DNA from: Maribacter algicola
GTDB lineage: Bacteria; Bacteroidota; Bacteroidia; Flavobacteriales; Flavobacteriaceae
Assembly (NCBI RefSeq): GCF_003933245.1
Contig: NZ_QUSX01000003.1
Span: 1 to 64,000, forward strand
DNA: 64,000 nucleotides
Direction: 5' to 3'
In this document: positions 38,214 to 44,851 of the stretch, piece after piece
How the letters are laid out: each line of letters starts with the position of its first letter
Numbering within the stretch: position 1 is the first letter of the stretch
Translations under genes and position numbers: made by a program
The notes under the pieces: generated by a model
What the model was told of the DNA's origin: nothing
Seen by the model: only the letters and a program-made list of their open reading frames with translations
The model's database searches: none

Positions 38214-38246
38214 AAAGACCTCTAGGGAATTTACCTAGGGGTCTTT
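38214..38246 (+). terminator. terminator after the YceI gene
   Basis: AAAGACCTCTAGG (38214-38226) pairs with CCTAGGGGTCTTT (38234-38246), 13 bp with one G-T, then a run of seven T from 38248. Confidence 0.9.
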
Positions 38247-38264: not shown

Positions 38265-38295
38265 TTGGTGCATTTCAATTTCCTTTCTATATTTA
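38265..38295 (+). promoter_or_regulatory. promoter of the trp operon
   Basis: TTGG (38265-38268), 19 nt, then TATATTTA (38288-38295, TAnnTTTG with the last base changed). Transcription would start near 38299, so the leader peptide would be translated from almost the first base. Confidence 0.6.
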
Positions 38296-38300
38296 CGCCA

Positions 38301-38354
38301 ATGAAAACAATGAAAAAAACTTGGTGGTGGAATAACTTACGACAGCATTCGTGA
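38301..38354 (+). CDS. trpL: trp operon leader peptide
   Basis: A 17-residue reading frame, MKTMKKTWWWNNLRQHS, ending TGA. A second ATG three codons in is also possible. Three consecutive TGG codons (38322-38330) in a short frame between the promoter and a terminator, right in front of trpE, are the hallmark of tryptophan attenuation. A ribosome stalled at these codons when charged tRNA-Trp is scarce would cover the segment before GACAGC (38341-38346), leaving that free to pair with the 5' arm of the terminator. Confidence 0.88.
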   Translation: MKTMKKTWWWNNLRQHS

Positions 38355-38380
38355 GCTAGTACTCCATGTAAAAAATATAG

Positions 38381-38408
38381 AGGCTTGTCATCACGACAGG
38401 CCTTTTTT
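38381..38408 (+). terminator. trp attenuator terminator
   Basis: AGGCTTGTC (38381-38389) pairs with GACAGGCCT (38395-38403) around ATCAC, followed by a T run (38403-38408). It lies 26 nt after the leader peptide stop and 17 nt before the trpE ATG. The alternative partner GACAGC (38341-38346) can pair with GC-TGTC of the 5' arm with one bulged T, a plausible antiterminator. Confidence 0.88.
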
Positions 38409-38425
38409 AATTTATAACGTTTATC

Positions 38426-39823
38426 ATGTCCTACACATTAAAGACATTCTCAAAAAAAATACTGGCAGACACTATAACGCCCGTCAGTGTGTATTTAAAA
38501 ATTAGGGATAAGTTCCCCAATAGCATTTTGCTGGAAAGCAGCGATTACCATGCCAATGACAACAGTTTCTCCTATATCTGTTGCAATCCCATTGCATCCA
38601 TAAAAATTCAGGATGAAAGGATTTTAAAGGAATTTCCCGATGCCAAAAAGCAATCTATTGACATTTCGGAAAAAACTGATGTAATTTCTGAAATTGACAA
38701 TTTTGCCAAAAGTTTCAAGATAACAGAACAGGACTATAAATTTATAACCAACGGACTTTTTGGGTTCATGGCCTATGATGCCGTTCGTTATTTTGAGGAT
38801 GTTAAAATCTCCCAAAAACCGAATTCGGTCGAAATTCCGGATATCTATTATGCCGTCTACCAAAACGTGATCGCCATAAACCATTTTAAGAACGAAGCCT
38901 ATATTTTTGCGCACTGTTATGATTCGGGGAATAATATTTCCGATATAGAACGATTGTTGAACGTTAGGACATTTGCTTCCTACAATTTCTCCAAAGAGGG
39001 AGAAGTCAAAACAAATTTACTGGACGAGGAATACAAGGAGCATGTGGATTTGGCAAAAAAGCACTGTCAACGCGGTGATGTCTTTCAATTGGTATTGTCC
39101 AGAAGGTTTTCCCAAAAGTTTAAGGGGGACGAATTCAATGTCTATAGGGCATTACGTTCCATAAATCCTTCCCCGTACCTTTTCTTTTTTGATTATGGCG
39201 ATTTTAAAATTTTTGGAAGTTCACCCGAAGCACAGCTGATCGTTAAAAACGGTAAGGCGGAAATCCATCCCATTGCAGGCACCTACAAACGTACTGGAAA
39301 TGACGAAAAAGATGCCGAACTGGCTAAAAAATTGGCCTTGGACGATAAGGAAAACAGCGAGCATGTGATGCTTGTAGATTTGGCCAGAAACGATTTAAGC
39401 CGAAACGGTAATTTGGTCAATGTGGACACCTATAGGGAGGTACAGTATTTCTCCCATGTGATCCATTTGGTCTCCAAAGTTACGGGAATGAAAAAACCGG
39501 ACATCCCTACCCTAAAAATTGTGGCGGATACCTTTCCCGCAGGAACCTTGAGTGGAGCGCCCAAGCACATGGCCATGCAGCTCATTGAAAAATATGAAAA
39601 AACGAGCCGTAGTTATTACGGAGGAGCAATTGGGTTTATGGATTTTAACGGCAATTTTAACCATGCCATAATGATCAGAACTTTTTTAAGCAAAAACCAT
39701 GAACTTCATTTTCAGGCCGGTGCCGGACTAGTCGCGGCGTCAATTGCCGAAGACGAGCTACAGGAAACGTATAATAAATTGGGGGCCTTGAACAAGGCTC
39801 TGGAAATTGCAGAAACTATCTAA
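38426..39823 (+). CDS. trpE: anthranilate synthase component I
   Basis: 465 residues. The N-terminal half carries the tryptophan-sensing region (LLESSDYHANDNSFSYI, matching the LLES feedback motif). The chorismate-binding half has QLVLSRRF, NPSPYLFFFDYGDFKIFGSSPEAQLIV, IAGTYKRTGNDEKDAELA, DLARNDLSRN, FPAGTLSGAPK and GGAIGFMD. It makes anthranilate from chorismate with TrpG. It is shorter than E. coli TrpE but normal for Flavobacteriaceae. It ends TAA directly abutting the trpG ATG. TrpE rather than PabB is supported by the operon. Confidence 0.97.
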   Translation: MSYTLKTFSKKILADTITPVSVYLKIRDKFPNSILLESSDYHANDNSFSYICCNPIASIKIQDERILKEFPDAKKQSIDISEKTDVISEIDNFAKSFKITEQDYKFITNGLFGFMAYDAVRYFEDVKISQKPNSVEIPDIYYAVYQNVIAINHFKNEAYIFAHCYDSGNNISDIERLLNVRTFASYNFSKEGEVKTNLLDEEYKEHVDLAKKHCQRGDVFQLVLSRRFSQKFKGDEFNVYRALRSINPSPYLFFFDYGDFKIFGSSPEAQLIVKNGKAEIHPIAGTYKRTGNDEKDAELAKKLALDDKENSEHVMLVDLARNDLSRNGNLVNVDTYREVQYFSHVIHLVSKVTGMKKPDIPTLKIVADTFPAGTLSGAPKHMAMQLIEKYEKTSRSYYGGAIGFMDFNGNFNHAIMIRTFLSKNHELHFQAGAGLVAASIAEDELQETYNKLGALNKALEIAETI

Positions 39824-40396
39824 ATGGCAAGAAAGGTATTAATGATAGACAATTACGATAGTTTCACCTATAATTTGGTTCACTATCTCGAGGATTTGGA
39901 TTGCGAAGTAATCGTAAAACGAAACGACCAGTTACATTTGGAAGACGTAGATGATTATGATGAAATTGTGCTTTCCCCAGGACCCGGAATTCCGGACGAG
40001 GCCGGATTATTAAAACCCATTATTGAAAAGTATGCTCCAACCAAGCGTATTTTTGGAGTCTGTCTGGGACAACAGGCCATTGCAGAGGTCTTTGGGGGGT
40101 CCTTGGTCAATTTGGACCAAGTTTACCACGGGGTTGCGACCAAAATAAGAGTTTCCGTCGATGACTATATTTTTGATGGTCTTGAGACGGAATTGGAAAT
40201 AGGCAGATACCATTCTTGGGTTGTAGACCCCAATTTGCCAGATTGCCTGGAGGCGACTTCCCTAGATGAAAACGGACAGATTATGTCACTTAGGCACAGG
40301 GACTACGATGTTAGGGGCGTACAGTTCCACCCAGAATCCGTACTAACCCCAGAAGGAAAAAAAATGTTGCAAAACTGGTTAAAACAAAAAAAATGA
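39824..40396 (+). CDS. trpG: anthranilate synthase component II (glutamine amidotransferase)
   Basis: 190 residues, a class I glutamine amidotransferase with catalytic Cys 80 (GVCLGQQAIAE), His 169 and Glu 171 (VQFHPESVLTPEG). It supplies ammonia to TrpE. The stop overlaps the trpD start by 4 nt (ATGA), so translation is probably coupled. It may also serve PabB; no pab gene is in the window. Confidence 0.97.
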   Translation: MARKVLMIDNYDSFTYNLVHYLEDLDCEVIVKRNDQLHLEDVDDYDEIVLSPGPGIPDEAGLLKPIIEKYAPTKRIFGVCLGQQAIAEVFGGSLVNLDQVYHGVATKIRVSVDDYIFDGLETELEIGRYHSWVVDPNLPDCLEATSLDENGQIMSLRHRDYDVRGVQFHPESVLTPEGKKMLQNWLKQKK

Positions 40397-41388
40397 AAGA
40401 GACACTTAATAGACTCATTAACCACGAAATCCTTGAAAAAGAGGATGCGAAACAGATTTTGGTCAACATTGCCAAGGGAGATTACAACACCAGCCAAATC
40501 GCTGCTTTCTTAACAGTTTATATGATGAGGAGCATTACCATAGAAGAACTTGAGGGGTTCCGGGATGCCTTGTTGGATTTATGTTTGGCAGTTGATCTAT
40601 CGGAATACAATCCAATTGATTTATGTGGTACAGGCGGTGATGGTAAGGACACTTTCAACATTTCTACTTTGGCCTCCTTCGTTACGGCTGGTGCCGGTAT
40701 AAAAGTTACCAAACACGGTAATTACGGAGTTTCATCAAAATGCGGGAGTAGTAACGTGATGGAATTTCTGGGTATCAAGTTTAGCAATGAGGCGGATTTC
40801 CTTAAAAAATCCATTGAGGAAGCGGGCATTTGTGTACTGCATGCACCACTTTTTCATCCAGCCATGAAAAACGTGGCCCCTATAAGAAGGGAATTGGCTG
40901 TAAAGACTTTCTTTAATATGTTGGGACCTATGGTAAACCCTGCATTTCCAAAAAATCAAATGGTGGGGGTTTTCAATTTGGAATTGGCAAGAATGTATGG
41001 CTATCTATATCAAAATACTGATAAGAACTTTACGGTTTTACACGCTCTGGACGGCTATGATGAAATCAGTTTAACAGGAGATACAAAAACGATTTCCAAT
41101 GGGTCCGAATCCATCCTAAGACCTTCGGATTTTGGTATTTCCCCCATTTCCGCTGATACTATCCTAGGTGGCGATGATATACCTGAATCTGCCCAAATAT
41201 TTATGAACGTACTGAACGGCAGGGGAACGGAGGCTCAAAACAATGTCGTCTGTGCCAATGCAGGAATTGCCATCAGCACTGTAAAAGGTATTGGTCCCAA
41301 AGAAGGATTTGATTTGGCCATGGAGTCCCTAAAAAGTGGTAAGGGACTAGCCGCTCTAAAGAAATTACAAGCCATTAGTGCATCATGA
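40393..41388 (+). CDS. trpD: anthranilate phosphoribosyltransferase
   Basis: 331 residues. The PRPP-binding motif CGTGGDGKDTFNIST (about 77-91) and KHGNYGVSSKCGSSNVME, LHAPLFHPAMKNVAPIRRELAVKTFFNMLGPMVNP are intact. It transfers phosphoribose to anthranilate. It is stand-alone, not fused to trpG. It overlaps trpG and trpC by ATGA at both ends. Confidence 0.97.
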   Translation: MKETLNRLINHEILEKEDAKQILVNIAKGDYNTSQIAAFLTVYMMRSITIEELEGFRDALLDLCLAVDLSEYNPIDLCGTGGDGKDTFNISTLASFVTAGAGIKVTKHGNYGVSSKCGSSNVMEFLGIKFSNEADFLKKSIEEAGICVLHAPLFHPAMKNVAPIRRELAVKTFFNMLGPMVNPAFPKNQMVGVFNLELARMYGYLYQNTDKNFTVLHALDGYDEISLTGDTKTISNGSESILRPSDFGISPISADTILGGDDIPESAQIFMNVLNGRGTEAQNNVVCANAGIAISTVKGIGPKEGFDLAMESLKSGKGLAALKKLQAISAS

Positions 41389-42170
41389 ATATTTTAGACA
41401 AAATAGTTGCCGACAAGAGAAAAGAAGTCGCCTTAAAAAAATCCATAATTCCTGCATCACAATGGGAAAAATCAGTTCTTTTTGGGCGGGATAGAAACTC
41501 TTTGGCAGAAGCTTTAAGAAAGAGTGAAACTGGTATTATAGCGGAACATAAAAGGCGTTCACCATCGAAATCCATCATCAACCAAAATATCAATGTGGGT
41601 CAGGTCGCCCAAGGCTATAATAAGGCAGGGGTTTGTGGCATAAGCATTTTAACCGACATTAAATATTTTGGAGGATCCTTGGAGGATCTATTGTTGGCAA
41701 GGGCATCGGTAGATATCCCGCTTTTGAGAAAGGAATTCATAATTGATGAATACCAACTTTTGGAAGCAAAGGCCCATGGTGCCGATGTGATTCTTTTGAT
41801 AGCGGCGGTACTGACACGAATTGAAATCAAAAATCTATCTGAACTTGCCCAGTCGTTAGATCTTGACGTGCTACTAGAGGTTCACAATGAGGAAGAACTT
41901 AAAAAATCCACCATGCCAAGTTTGGATATGTTGGGCGTCAATAACCGGAATCTAAAGACATTCGATGTCAGCTTGGATACCAGCAAGGAATTATCCCAGC
42001 TCATCCCAAATGATTTTGTAAAGGTTTCAGAAAGTGGAATAAGCTCTATTGAAGCCATTGAGGCTTTAAAAATATTTGGTTATAAAGGTTTTCTAATTGG
42101 TGAAAATTTTATGAAGTCGGTTAATCCAGGTGAAAGTGCCAAAATGTTTATAGATCAACTAAAAAAATAA
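41385..42170 (+). CDS. trpC: indole-3-glycerol phosphate synthase
   Basis: 261 residues, one TIM barrel. Family motifs: IIAEHKRRSPSKSIIN, SILTDIKYFGGSLEDLLLAR, PLLRKEFIIDEYQLLEAKAHGADVILLIAA, LLEVHNEEEL, LGVNNRNLKTF and VSESGI. It is monofunctional; the isomerase is the separate trpF. It starts inside the end of trpD (ATGA overlap). Its downstream junction is broken by an 81-bp gap containing a palindromic repeat. Confidence 0.97.
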   Translation: MNILDKIVADKRKEVALKKSIIPASQWEKSVLFGRDRNSLAEALRKSETGIIAEHKRRSPSKSIINQNINVGQVAQGYNKAGVCGISILTDIKYFGGSLEDLLLARASVDIPLLRKEFIIDEYQLLEAKAHGADVILLIAAVLTRIEIKNLSELAQSLDLDVLLEVHNEEELKKSTMPSLDMLGVNNRNLKTFDVSLDTSKELSQLIPNDFVKVSESGISSIEAIEALKIFGYKGFLIGENFMKSVNPGESAKMFIDQLKK

Positions 42171-42171
42171 A

Positions 42172-42240
42172 TGTCATTTCGAGCGAACGCGAGAAGTCAA
42201 AAATAGATTTCTCTATAGCGTTGCTCATTTTAGAATGACA
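42172..42240. repeat. palindromic intergenic repeat between trpC and trpF
   Basis: An imperfect 69-bp palindrome. TGTCATT (42172-42178) pairs with AATGACA (42234-42240); GAGCGAACGC (42181-42190) with GCGTTGCTC (42218-42226); GAGAAGT (42191-42197) with ATTTCTC (42207-42213). Ends TGTCATT...AATGACA and the inner TCGAGCG...CGAGAA text are typical of a dispersed repeat family in Flavobacteriaceae genomes. It fills nearly the whole trpC-trpF gap. Confidence 0.75.
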
Positions 42241-42251
42241 AATAGAGTCTT

Positions 42252-42893
42252 ATGAAACTTAAAATCTGCGGTATGAAATACAATCCCAAGGAGGTTGCGG
42301 TCTTGCGACCCGATTATTTGGGATTTATATTTTGGGAACCCTCTGCTAGGTATTTTGATGGGGAAATCGCAGCATTACCATCGGACATAGAAAAAATTGG
42401 GGTGTTTGTAGATGCCGATATATCCTATGTGCGGGAACATATTGAAAAATATGACCTCCAAGGTGTACAATTGCATGGAAATGAGACCCCGGAATATTGT
42501 AAAGAACTTTTAGAGTTAACAGGAAGTCCTGGCTGGTCTTCAAAACCTGTAAGGTCTATTAAGGTATTTTCGATAAAGGATAAATTCGATTTTAATATAC
42601 TTAAAGCATACGAAAATGTCTGTGACTATTTCTTGTTCGATACAAAGGGCAAACTTCCAGGCGGCAACGGCTACGTTTTTGATTGGTCAATTTTAAAAAA
42701 CTACCCATCTTCCAAGCCCTATTTCTTAAGCGGAGGGATTGGACTGGAAAATGTTGAAGAAATTAAAAAGTTCCTGCAAACAGCCGGGTCAAAATATTGC
42801 CATGCCCTTGACGTCAACAGCAAATTTGAGGACCGACCGGGGTTAAAAAATATAGAGAACCTTATTGAATTTAAATTGCATTTAAGCATTTAA
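42252..42893 (+). CDS. trpF: phosphoribosylanthranilate isomerase
   Basis: 213 residues, a small TIM barrel. Catalytic Cys and Asp are visible: KICGMKY (Cys 5) and FLFDTKGKLPGGNGYVFDWSIL (Asp about 133); also YLGFIFWEPSARYF, VQLHGNE, and FLSGGIGLENV. It converts PRA to CdRP. It is the only trp gene separated from its upstream neighbour by a long gap. Confidence 0.96.
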   Translation: MKLKICGMKYNPKEVAVLRPDYLGFIFWEPSARYFDGEIAALPSDIEKIGVFVDADISYVREHIEKYDLQGVQLHGNETPEYCKELLELTGSPGWSSKPVRSIKVFSIKDKFDFNILKAYENVCDYFLFDTKGKLPGGNGYVFDWSILKNYPSSKPYFLSGGIGLENVEEIKKFLQTAGSKYCHALDVNSKFEDRPGLKNIENLIEFKLHLSI

Positions 42894-42905
42894 TACGTTA
42901 TGATT

Positions 42906-44087
42906 ATGAGATATCATGTTGATGAAAAAGGATATTATGGGGAATTTGGCGGAGCGTTCATCCCTGAAATGTTGTACCCCAATGTAGAAGAGCTGCGCCA
43001 GAAATATTTAAAAATCATGAATGAGGAATCCTTTCAAAAAGAATTCCATCAGCTCTTAAAAGATTATGTGGGGCGGCCATCGCCATTATACTTTGCAAAA
43101 AGACTTTCGCAGAAACATGGTGCAAAAATCTACCTAAAGCGGGAAGACCTCAACCATACGGGTGCCCATAAAGTGAACAATACAATTGGTCAGATATTGA
43201 TGGCCAAAAGACTAGGCAAAACAAGGATAATAGCGGAAACAGGGGCAGGGCAGCACGGTGTGGCCACGGCAACCGTGTGCGCCCTCATGGGAATGCAATG
43301 TATCGTTTATATGGGTGAAATCGATATCGCACGGCAAGCTCCCAATGTTGCCCGTATGAAAATGCTGGGTGCGGAAGTTAGACCCGCCACATCAGGTAGC
43401 AAAACCTTGAAAGATGCAACAAACGAGGCCATTAGGGATTGGATCAACAACCCTGTGGACACCCATTACATAATTGGTTCGGCCATTGGACCACACCCCT
43501 ACCCTGATATGGTAACCCGTTTTCAATCGGTCATATCGGAAGAAATAAAATGGCAGTTAAAGGAAAAGGAAGGACGTGAAAACCCGGATTATGTGGTGGC
43601 CTGTATAGGTGGCGGAAGTAACGCGGCCGGTACTTATTACCACTTTTTGGACCAGCCGGAAGTGGGCATCATCGCAGTGGAAGCAGCCGGAAAGGGAATT
43701 GATTCCGGGGAAAGTGCCGCTACATCCGCATTAGGTAAAATTGGAATCATCCATGGTTGTAAAACCATGTTGATGCAAACACCTGATGGCCAGATTACGG
43801 AACCCTACTCCATTTCGGCAGGTTTGGATTACCCGGGCGTTGGACCTATGCACTCACACCTTTATGCATCGGGCAGAGCCGAATTTTATTCCGCCACCGA
43901 TGATGAGGCCATGACGGCAGGTCTGGAACTCTCCCAATTGGAAGGCATTATTCCGGCGATTGAATCCGGTCACGCCTTTGCCATTTTTCACCACAAAAAA
44001 TTTAAACCAGACGATGTGATAGTAATGAGCTTATCTGGAAGGGGCGATAAAGATTTACAGACATACATAGATTATTTTAAGTTATAA
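42906..44087 (+). CDS. trpB: tryptophan synthase beta chain
   Basis: 393 residues from ATG at 42906 ([18 protein letters not shown]); an ATG two codons earlier (42900) is possible. The PLP lysine is in [19 protein letters not shown] (Lys about 87), and the phosphate-binding loop is [34 protein letters not shown] marks the TrpB1 form. It condenses indole and serine with TrpA. It lies 2 nt before trpA. Confidence 0.98.
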
Positions 44088-44089
44088 GG

Positions 44090-44851
44090 ATGAATAGAAT
44101 ACAACAGAAATTAAAGGAAGACAAGAAACTATTGTCCATTTATTTTACGGCAGGATATCCATCTTTAGATAGCACAGTTAGCATTATCAAGGATTTGGAA
44201 AGGAACGGCGTGGATATGATAGAAATTGGTCTACCTTTCAGTGACCCTTTGGCTGACGGACCTACTATACAGGAAAGTTCTACTGCCGCTTTAAAAAATG
44301 GAATGACCTCGGATTTTCTGTTTGATCAATTAAAGGATATCCGTGAGTCGGTTTCCATTCCTCTTATCATCATGGGGTATTTTAATCCCGTGCTTCAATA
44401 TGGCGTTGAGGCATTTTGCGCGAAATGCCAGGAAATTGGTATCGACGGACTCATATTGCCCGATTTACCTTTGGATGTCTACGAGTCCGAATACAAAGCG
44501 ATTTTTGAAAAATACGGATTGTTGAATACGTTTCTCATTACCCCGCAAACCGGTGACGAAAGAATCCGCCAAATTGATAAAGCCTCCAATGGTTTTATCT
44601 ATATGGTAAGTTCCGCAAGCGTTACGGGTTCAAAATCCGGATTTGGAAACGAGCAAGAGGCCTATTTTGAACGAATTGCCTCTATGGAACTGAAAAATCC
44701 ACAGATCGTGGGCTTTGGAATCAAAGATGCGGAGACCTTTCAACAGGCCACTCGCGGGGCCAAAGGAGCCATTATTGGTTCGGCCTTTATAAAATTTTTG
44801 TCAGAAAATGGGGAAAGTAATATCGCTAGTTTTATAAAAGAAATACGATGA
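44090..44851 (+). CDS. trpA: tryptophan synthase alpha chain
   Basis: 253 residues, a TIM barrel. Catalytic Glu lies in MIEIGLPFSDPLADGPTIQ (Glu about 47) and Asp in GLILPDLPLD (about Asp 126). YMVSSASVTGSKSGF closes the phosphate site and GFGIKDAETF follows. It splits indole-3-glycerol phosphate to indole. Its stop overlaps the next small gene by 4 nt (ATGA). Confidence 0.98.
   Translation: MNRIQQKLKEDKKLLSIYFTAGYPSLDSTVSIIKDLERNGVDMIEIGLPFSDPLADGPTIQESSTAALKNGMTSDFLFDQLKDIRESVSIPLIIMGYFNPVLQYGVEAFCAKCQEIGIDGLILPDLPLDVYESEYKAIFEKYGLLNTFLITPQTGDERIRQIDKASNGFIYMVSSASVTGSKSGFGNEQEAYFERIASMELKNPQIVGFGIKDAETFQQATRGAKGAIIGSAFIKFLSENGESNIASFIKEIR

Follow-up and report, generated by a model that had tools for sequence, protein, structure and literature searches.

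The DNA under study, here called the window, is a stretch of 64,000 nt from a contig of Maribacter algicola (NZ_QUSX01000003.1, positions 1 to 64,000, forward strand). It harbors a trp operon with trpE as the first structural gene (Table 1). The putative attenuator region is located between a YceI-family gene on its upstream side, identified by Pfam, and trpE at 38426. Downstream of the YceI-family gene, the terminator scan detected a terminator-like hairpin on the forward strand (38214-38246). The best-matching named TrpE loci are those of Maribacter thermophilus and Maribacter sp. PR1, each with 89%.

An original prediction, made from the letters and a list of open reading frames, had described this region as a complete tryptophan attenuator. 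The elements of its promoter-like arrangement, TTGG-N19-TATATTTA, were found at the positions it had given, and the 17-codon frame with three consecutive Trp codons at 38322-38330 is present exactly as described. Regarding the terminator with its T run, 17 nt lie between 38408 and the trpE start, as had been stated; the terminator scan gives a hairpin of 11 pairs at 38379-38405, compared with the 9 bp named in the prediction.

Table 1. Features of the trp leader region and the adjoining genes in the window
Feature	Position	Strand	Basis
TTGG, candidate -33 element	38265..38268	+	sequence; 19 nt upstream of -7 element
-7 promoter element TATATTTA	38288..38295	+	consensus TAnnTTTG, one mismatch
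predicted transcription start, 0-1 nt before ATG	38300..38301	+	inferred from -7 spacing
leader ORF MKTMKKTWWWNNLRQHS, then stop	38301..38354	+	sequence; ATG 38301, stop TGA 38352-38354, 17 codons
three Trp codons TGGTGGTGG, putative sensor	38322..38330	+	sequence; conserved in relatives
region 1, CTTACGA, predicted to pair with region 2 unless covered by a ribosome	38336..38342	+	single-sequence fold, energy controls
region 2, TCGTGA, holds stop codon	38349..38354	+	near-invariant in alignment A1
linker, upper part of antiterminator in single-sequence folds	38355..38378	+	shuffled-linker control; absent from RNAalifold consensus
intrinsic terminator hairpin, then T tail	38379..38405	+	terminator scan, fold, conservation
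region 3 core, TCACGA, in loop and 3'-arm start of terminator, putative partner of region 2	38391..38396	+	near-invariant in A1; complementarity
trpE, first structural gene	38426..39823	+	Pfam Anth_synt_I_N and Chorismate_bind
trpG, trpD, trpC, trpF, trpB, trpA	39824..44851	+	Pfam domains; gene names inferred from domains and order

Conservation of the leader in the Flavobacteriaceae

TrpE was found in 232 of 249 Flavobacteriaceae genomes, and the upstream DNA was read in 110 of the 232, the window's own included (30 + 80 loci). These genomes were picked in order from the top of the list, with two skipped, and represent 106 genera by genus codes; the other 122 genomes with TrpE, mostly carrying a less similar TrpE, lie outside the sample. 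A run of Trp codons followed by a terminator precedes trpE in all 110 genomes read, and relatives lacking the Trp-rich frame or the hairpin, which the original prediction had named as evidence against itself, were not encountered among them. At one locus (L096) a contig end cuts the sequence before the start codon, and this locus was dropped from the later counts (n=109). Furthermore, 80 named loci were added, of which eight show no difference from one of the 110 in the 150 nt preceding trpE. The start codon is readable in 189 of the 190 loci (110 + 80) and is ATG in 183, GTG in three and TTG in three. Alignment A1 comprises 119 rows: besides the window, it contains 118 out of a total of 124 distinct cores; the six cores omitted are one that equals the window and five from members of the genus.

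As expected for a ribosome-mediated attenuator, the relatives carry a short Trp-rich ORF before trpE which begins with an in-frame ATG, GTG or TTG. The Trp run reads WWW in 106 and WW in three of the 109 leaders with a readable start. By itself, TGGTGGTGG is not rare (two occurrences in the 64-kb window against 0.46 expected, and at least two in 6 of 100 shuffles), and the weight of the evidence therefore lies in the arrangement of the parts and in their conservation. The residue preceding the Trp run (38319-38321 in the window) is Thr in 89 of the 109 family leaders and in 51 of the 80 named loci, mostly with Asn or His before the Thr.

An intrinsic terminator before the first structural gene is predicted from sequence and fold. 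Scanning of 351 nt gave four terminator-like sites, two per strand, compared with 0.2 in shuffled sequences. Of the pair cells of the terminator, 99.8% are kept and four of ten pairs have changed on both sides, with no shuffle reaching as high; the hairpin itself covaries. The stretch 38299-38425 folds at -29.5 kcal/mol (z -3.3), with one of 200 shuffles being as stable.

Predicted alternative pairings of the leader RNA

Complementarity to the segment termed region 2 is found in the loop of the terminator and at the beginning of its 3' arm, where the core is termed region 3. At least six Watson-Crick pairs can form between region 2 and this part of the terminator in 104 of the 109 leaders, against 1.7% of mononucleotide shuffles, and in 71 of the 80 named loci. 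When an eight-pair helix is counted in A1, the six core pairs are present in 114 to 119 of the 119 rows and the flanking pairs in 33 and 55. Because regions 2 and 3 are almost constant, they offer little covariation: 83.5% of the cells are paired versus 83.0% with shuffled letters, five of 951 cells have changed on both sides, of which one lies in the core and four belong to the innermost pair, and the covariation score is reached by 24 of 500 shuffles. One lineage (L124) shows a double change in the core, TCGTAA with TTACGA, and its stop codon has become TAA with it. Swapping region 2 between leaders costs almost nothing, the own version being better in 46 of 109. In the aligned sequences, the evidence for the 2:3 helix is conserved complementarity more than covariation.

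RNAalifold recovers the 2:3 stem when the alignment ends at region 3; between region 2 and region 3 it returned the basal stem alone and not the upper antiterminator. When the leaders are folded singly, the predicted antiterminator is a long imperfect hairpin in which five to seven bases of region 2 are paired to region 3, the middle pairs with the terminator 5' arm and the top lies in the linker. This fold engages two to seven of the eight nt of the 5' arm (four to six in 99 of the 109 leaders), and in 105 of 109 shuffling of the linker makes it less stable. Capture of the terminator through its loop alone was rejected on these grounds, since the folds from region 2 to region 3 also engage the 5' arm, though the alignment consensus shows the basal stem only.

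When the 16 nt that begin with the first Trp codon (0-15) are masked and the RNA is cut off after region 3, 2:3 pairing is obtained in 109 of 109 leaders. The best fold of the full-length RNA contains the terminator in 109 of 109 leaders, stalled or not. The mean energies are -12.5 kcal/mol for the antiterminator and -15.0 kcal/mol for the terminator. Because the full RNA keeps the terminator at equilibrium even when stalled, the antiterminator would have to win in time. Conserved complementarity and truncated folds thus point to a mutually exclusive antiterminator that a stalled ribosome would permit, its covariation being thin and its upper part lying outside the consensus.

The spacing of region 2 is narrow. 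Counted from the first base of the first Trp codon, it starts at 27 nt in 83, at 28 nt in 23 and at 26 nt in three of the 109 leaders, and at 27 nt in 79 of the 80 named loci. The TGA of region 2 is the stop codon in 72 of 109 leaders (TAA in L124). Another 22 use a different frame, in which the stop lies 8 nt after the region 2 start (5 nt later), and keep the RNA motif; in 13 leaders the stop is located 0-11 nt before or at the region 2 start and in one 7 nt after it. Such a spacing is expected if the ribosome measures the distance. With usual footprints, a ribosome stalled at the Trp codons would cover region 1, and a ribosome at the stop codon would cover region 2.

When each leader is folded alone and ribosome-free, region 2 finds its partner upstream in 106 of the 109. 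The own 1:2 pairing beats shuffled versions in 105 of 109 leaders and swapped versions in 86. A consensus 1:2 hairpin was found by RNAalifold neither in the whole alignment nor in two subgroups. In the pair count, 62.7% of the cells are held and shuffles are beaten on three of five measures; among the slid controls, a shift by three columns produces more changes on both sides (51 vs 47 cells) and a shift by one column nearly the same covariation score. It is for the per-sequence folds and the energy controls only that the 1:2 hairpin is retained.

Conservation and the logic of the folds strongly support attenuation by a Trp leader peptide, and we read the locus, with a probability of roughly 93%, as a ribosome-mediated transcription attenuator of the trp operon and a member of family RF01692. 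What the sequences establish are the individual elements and how well they are conserved, the narrow spacing and the alternative folds; all events in the cell are deduced from these. RNA polymerase would start at or 1 nt before the leader ATG, and a ribosome would probably load on the leaderless 5' end. When charged tRNA-Trp is scarce, the ribosome would stall on the three Trp codons and cover region 1 (38336-38342). Region 2 (from 38349) would thereby be left free to pair with region 3 (38391-38396) and, as single-sequence folds suggest, with part of the terminator 5' arm, so that the terminator could not nucleate and transcription would read through into trpE. When Trp is plentiful, the ribosome would reach the stop codon and cover region 2, and the terminator (38379-38405) would form. 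Without translation, region 1 would pair with region 2, and the terminator would form as well.

A different antiterminator had been proposed originally, in which GACAGC (38341-38346) pairs with GCTTGTC, the 5' arm of the terminator, leaving one bulge. The motif lies upstream of the terminator, as required, and its duplex can form in the window at -4.3 kcal/mol, compared with -6.4 for TCGTGA with TCACGA. However, GACAGC occurs in two of the 119 aligned leaders and in one of the 80 named loci, and the truncated window RNA folds as TCGTGA:TCACGA instead. Complementarity of the leaders to the 5' arm also stays below that of shuffles, both in the longest contiguous stretch (mean 3.49 vs 3.65 bp) and in duplex energy, which is weaker (-3.03 vs -3.81). 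On the motif count and these two comparisons the GACAGC pairing was rejected, and it is in our view very improbable as the antiterminator.

The hardly varying core, the thin covariation and the absence of the upper antiterminator from the RNAalifold consensus would also agree with a TCACGA loop that is kept for some other reason, for example contact with a protein or an antisense RNA, with simple termination as the real control and no antiterminator at all. This is unlikely, given that the partner in the leader is held at a narrow distance even when the reading frame changes, that the lineage of L124 carries a compensatory double change, and that the 2:3 fold becomes less stable in 105 of 109 leaders once the linker alone is shuffled. 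Regulation through a T-box or a Trp-binding protein (TrpR or TRAP), with the short ORF being incidental, drew no support from the analysis and is scarcely conceivable: family searches, which were positive in control genomes, gave no match to Trp_repressor (TrpR) or TrpBP (TRAP) in the genome, no T-box in the window reaches the Rfam cut-offs, and the Trp run is kept in 109 of 109 leaders.

Probable position of the transcription start

In F. johnsoniae, the -7 element stands out far more clearly than a -33 motif (PMC6847099). The same study predicts many starts from RNA-Seq data at a distance of 4 or 5 nt downstream of the -7 element, and where a transcript has a probable promoter of this kind, its leader exceeds 10 nt in 87% of cases. 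In F. psychrophilum, 5.5% leaderless mRNAs are given among 890 genes (PMC9723704). The gap between the -7 element and the ATG is 5 nt in the window, which, if the rule of F. johnsoniae holds here, leads to a 5' UTR of 0-1 nt; judged by this spacing, the trp leader mRNA is probably leaderless. The original prediction had spoken of almost no 5' UTR. The promoter spacing agrees with this and is kept by many relatives, and the start itself is deduced from it.

Taking the best-scoring -7 site of the scanned stretch, a choice that favours good matches, a perfect TAnnTTTG was obtained in 185 of 189 leaders and one with a single mismatch in four, the window included. The distance from this element to the start codon is exactly 5 nt in 33 of the 109 family leaders and in 58 of the 80 named loci, and 4-8 nt in 51 of 109 and in 80 of 80, respectively. 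Among the remaining 58 family leaders, it is 9-22 nt in 53 and longer in five. Three relatives (L038, L078 and L120) have a GTG start at a gap of 5 nt. A quick TrpE tree was calculated from 85 rows which had been hand-picked to span the gap sizes. In one of its branches (SH-aLRT 89, not starred) the gap is 4-8 nt in 53 of 54 rows and exactly 5 nt in 39, while outside it 8 of 31 rows have a gap of 4-8 nt. Over the whole tree, the gap label requires 8 changes, compared with 21 in shuffles. Perfect -7 motifs precede ORFs of at least 100 codons 14 times in the window, with gaps from 4 to 43 nt; three of these gaps are 4 or 5 nt, so that short gaps are not unique to the trp leader.

On balance we incline to the following view of the branch with Maribacter, Muricauda/Flagellimonas, Arenibacter, Cellulophaga and Eudoraea, which we hold with modest confidence. 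Its sensor peptide may be translated from a leaderless RNA, with selection holding the ATG (GTG in three relatives) at the transcription start, whereas most other sampled lineages would have leaders of about 4-18 nt; the antiterminator would take up part of the 5' arm in addition to the loop of the terminator and the beginning of its 3' arm. If this is true, the ribosome loads as soon as the 5' end exits RNA polymerase, without help from a Shine-Dalgarno sequence, and leaderless loading would let attenuation work in a phylum without such sequences. Tight coupling of transcription and translation at the trp leader, also part of the original prediction, is plausible. A limited search of the openly licensed literature, in the parts available, found no paper on a leaderless leader ORF in Bacteroidota. 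The probable leaderless start is the one feature of the locus that deserves a bench test.

Known relatives and further candidate leaders of the genome

The Rfam family RF01692 (Bacteroid-trp) matches 38281-38389 with 54.4 bits at a curated cut-off of 49, and, in keeping with the placement of this family before trp biosynthesis genes in Bacteroidota, trpE follows at 38426. A search with stricter filters detected RF01692 in 32 of 60 genomes (the window's own and relatives) and in 30 of the 36 genomes of the genus, with no match in the other six. Among 20 diverse leaders, 18 pass the cut-off and two (L034 and L068) lie below it. A scan across the phylum, covering 198 genomes, was positive in 18, every one of them from the family to which the window belongs; as it missed one genome (G211) whose leader (L135) is in our sample, absence elsewhere is weak evidence. 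The family model opens before the leader ATG, which in the present case is over the -7 element, and closes with the terminator 5' arm. It contains one hairpin over the Trp codons and pairs neither the terminator nor the antiterminator.

The trp attenuator of E. coli has a leader peptide with two adjacent Trp codons and hairpins 1:2, 2:3 and 3:4. The logic appears to be the same here, with a leader peptide containing Trp codons and the corresponding three pairings. Differences are the three adjacent Trp codons instead of two, an antiterminator whose base is predicted to come from the terminator loop and the start of the 3' arm, a 5' UTR that is probably close to zero, and a genome without a TrpR match. 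A Trp leader ORF is also known from the alphaproteobacterial Sinorhizobium meliloti. Its trpL RNA begins with the ATG (PMC7298713), and the likeness is a Trp leader ORF at the RNA 5' end, a position which in the window is deduced from promoter spacing.

The original prediction had regarded a clean trp attenuator in Bacteroidota as worth documenting. Such a leader is not a first in this phylum: Bacteroid-trp, now RF01692, already appeared in 2010 in a list of candidate cis-regulatory RNAs from Bacteroidetes (Weinberg et al., PMC2864571). A Bacteroid-trp RNA was also noted before the F. psychrophilum trp operon (PMC6414381), and leader-peptide attenuation was inferred from the transcriptome for amino-acid operons of this species (PMC9723704). 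By its sequence, the locus is an ordinary and well-conserved member of a known attenuator family, and the surprise of the original prediction was therefore unwarranted. The family shares with our locus the phylum, the place before trp genes, the Trp codons, the hairpin over them and the conserved terminator 5' arm. The putative antiterminator, the whole terminator and the probable transcription start, absent from the RF01692 model, are drawn here. The structured 5' regions of F. psychrophilum are similar in that leader-peptide attenuation was inferred before amino-acid operons; in their accessible parts, these descriptions (PMC9723704, PMC6414381) give neither an antiterminator pairing nor a leaderless start of the leader ORF.

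What is added to the known family is a family-wide count, a conserved candidate antiterminator replacing GACAGC, and a probable leaderless start. RF01692 thereby gains a full three-hairpin model to test. With an RNA of about 110 nt, sharp conserved parts and an ORF that seemingly begins at the first RNA bases, the trp leader is a handy test bed and could show how ribosomes keep pace with RNA polymerase in bacteria without Shine-Dalgarno sequences.

Candidates for further leader peptides precede hisG, pheA and ilvD in the same genome, and attenuation thus looks like a habit of the organism. Upstream of hisG (L141), the candidate MRKNNNTHHHFYTCSQAR with its stop codon is followed by a terminator, and in the truncated fold TTGCTC pairs with the loop of the terminator and the upper end of its 5' arm. 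The pheA leader (L142) has the candidate MTKQYFWNGFYFYFFFKRGTGLL, then a stop, with six Phe residues, and its ACGGGACT is complementary to the terminator 5' arm. Loop capture as a rule for all attenuators of the genome was rejected, since the pheA fold uses the 5' arm and the hisG fold the 5' arm and the loop. Upstream of ilvD (L143), the candidate MKSIIVSEIVIISNRE, in which 7 of 16 residues are Ile or Val, ends in a stop and is followed by a terminator. A second promoter-like site, recognized by eye, is located nearer to ilvD.
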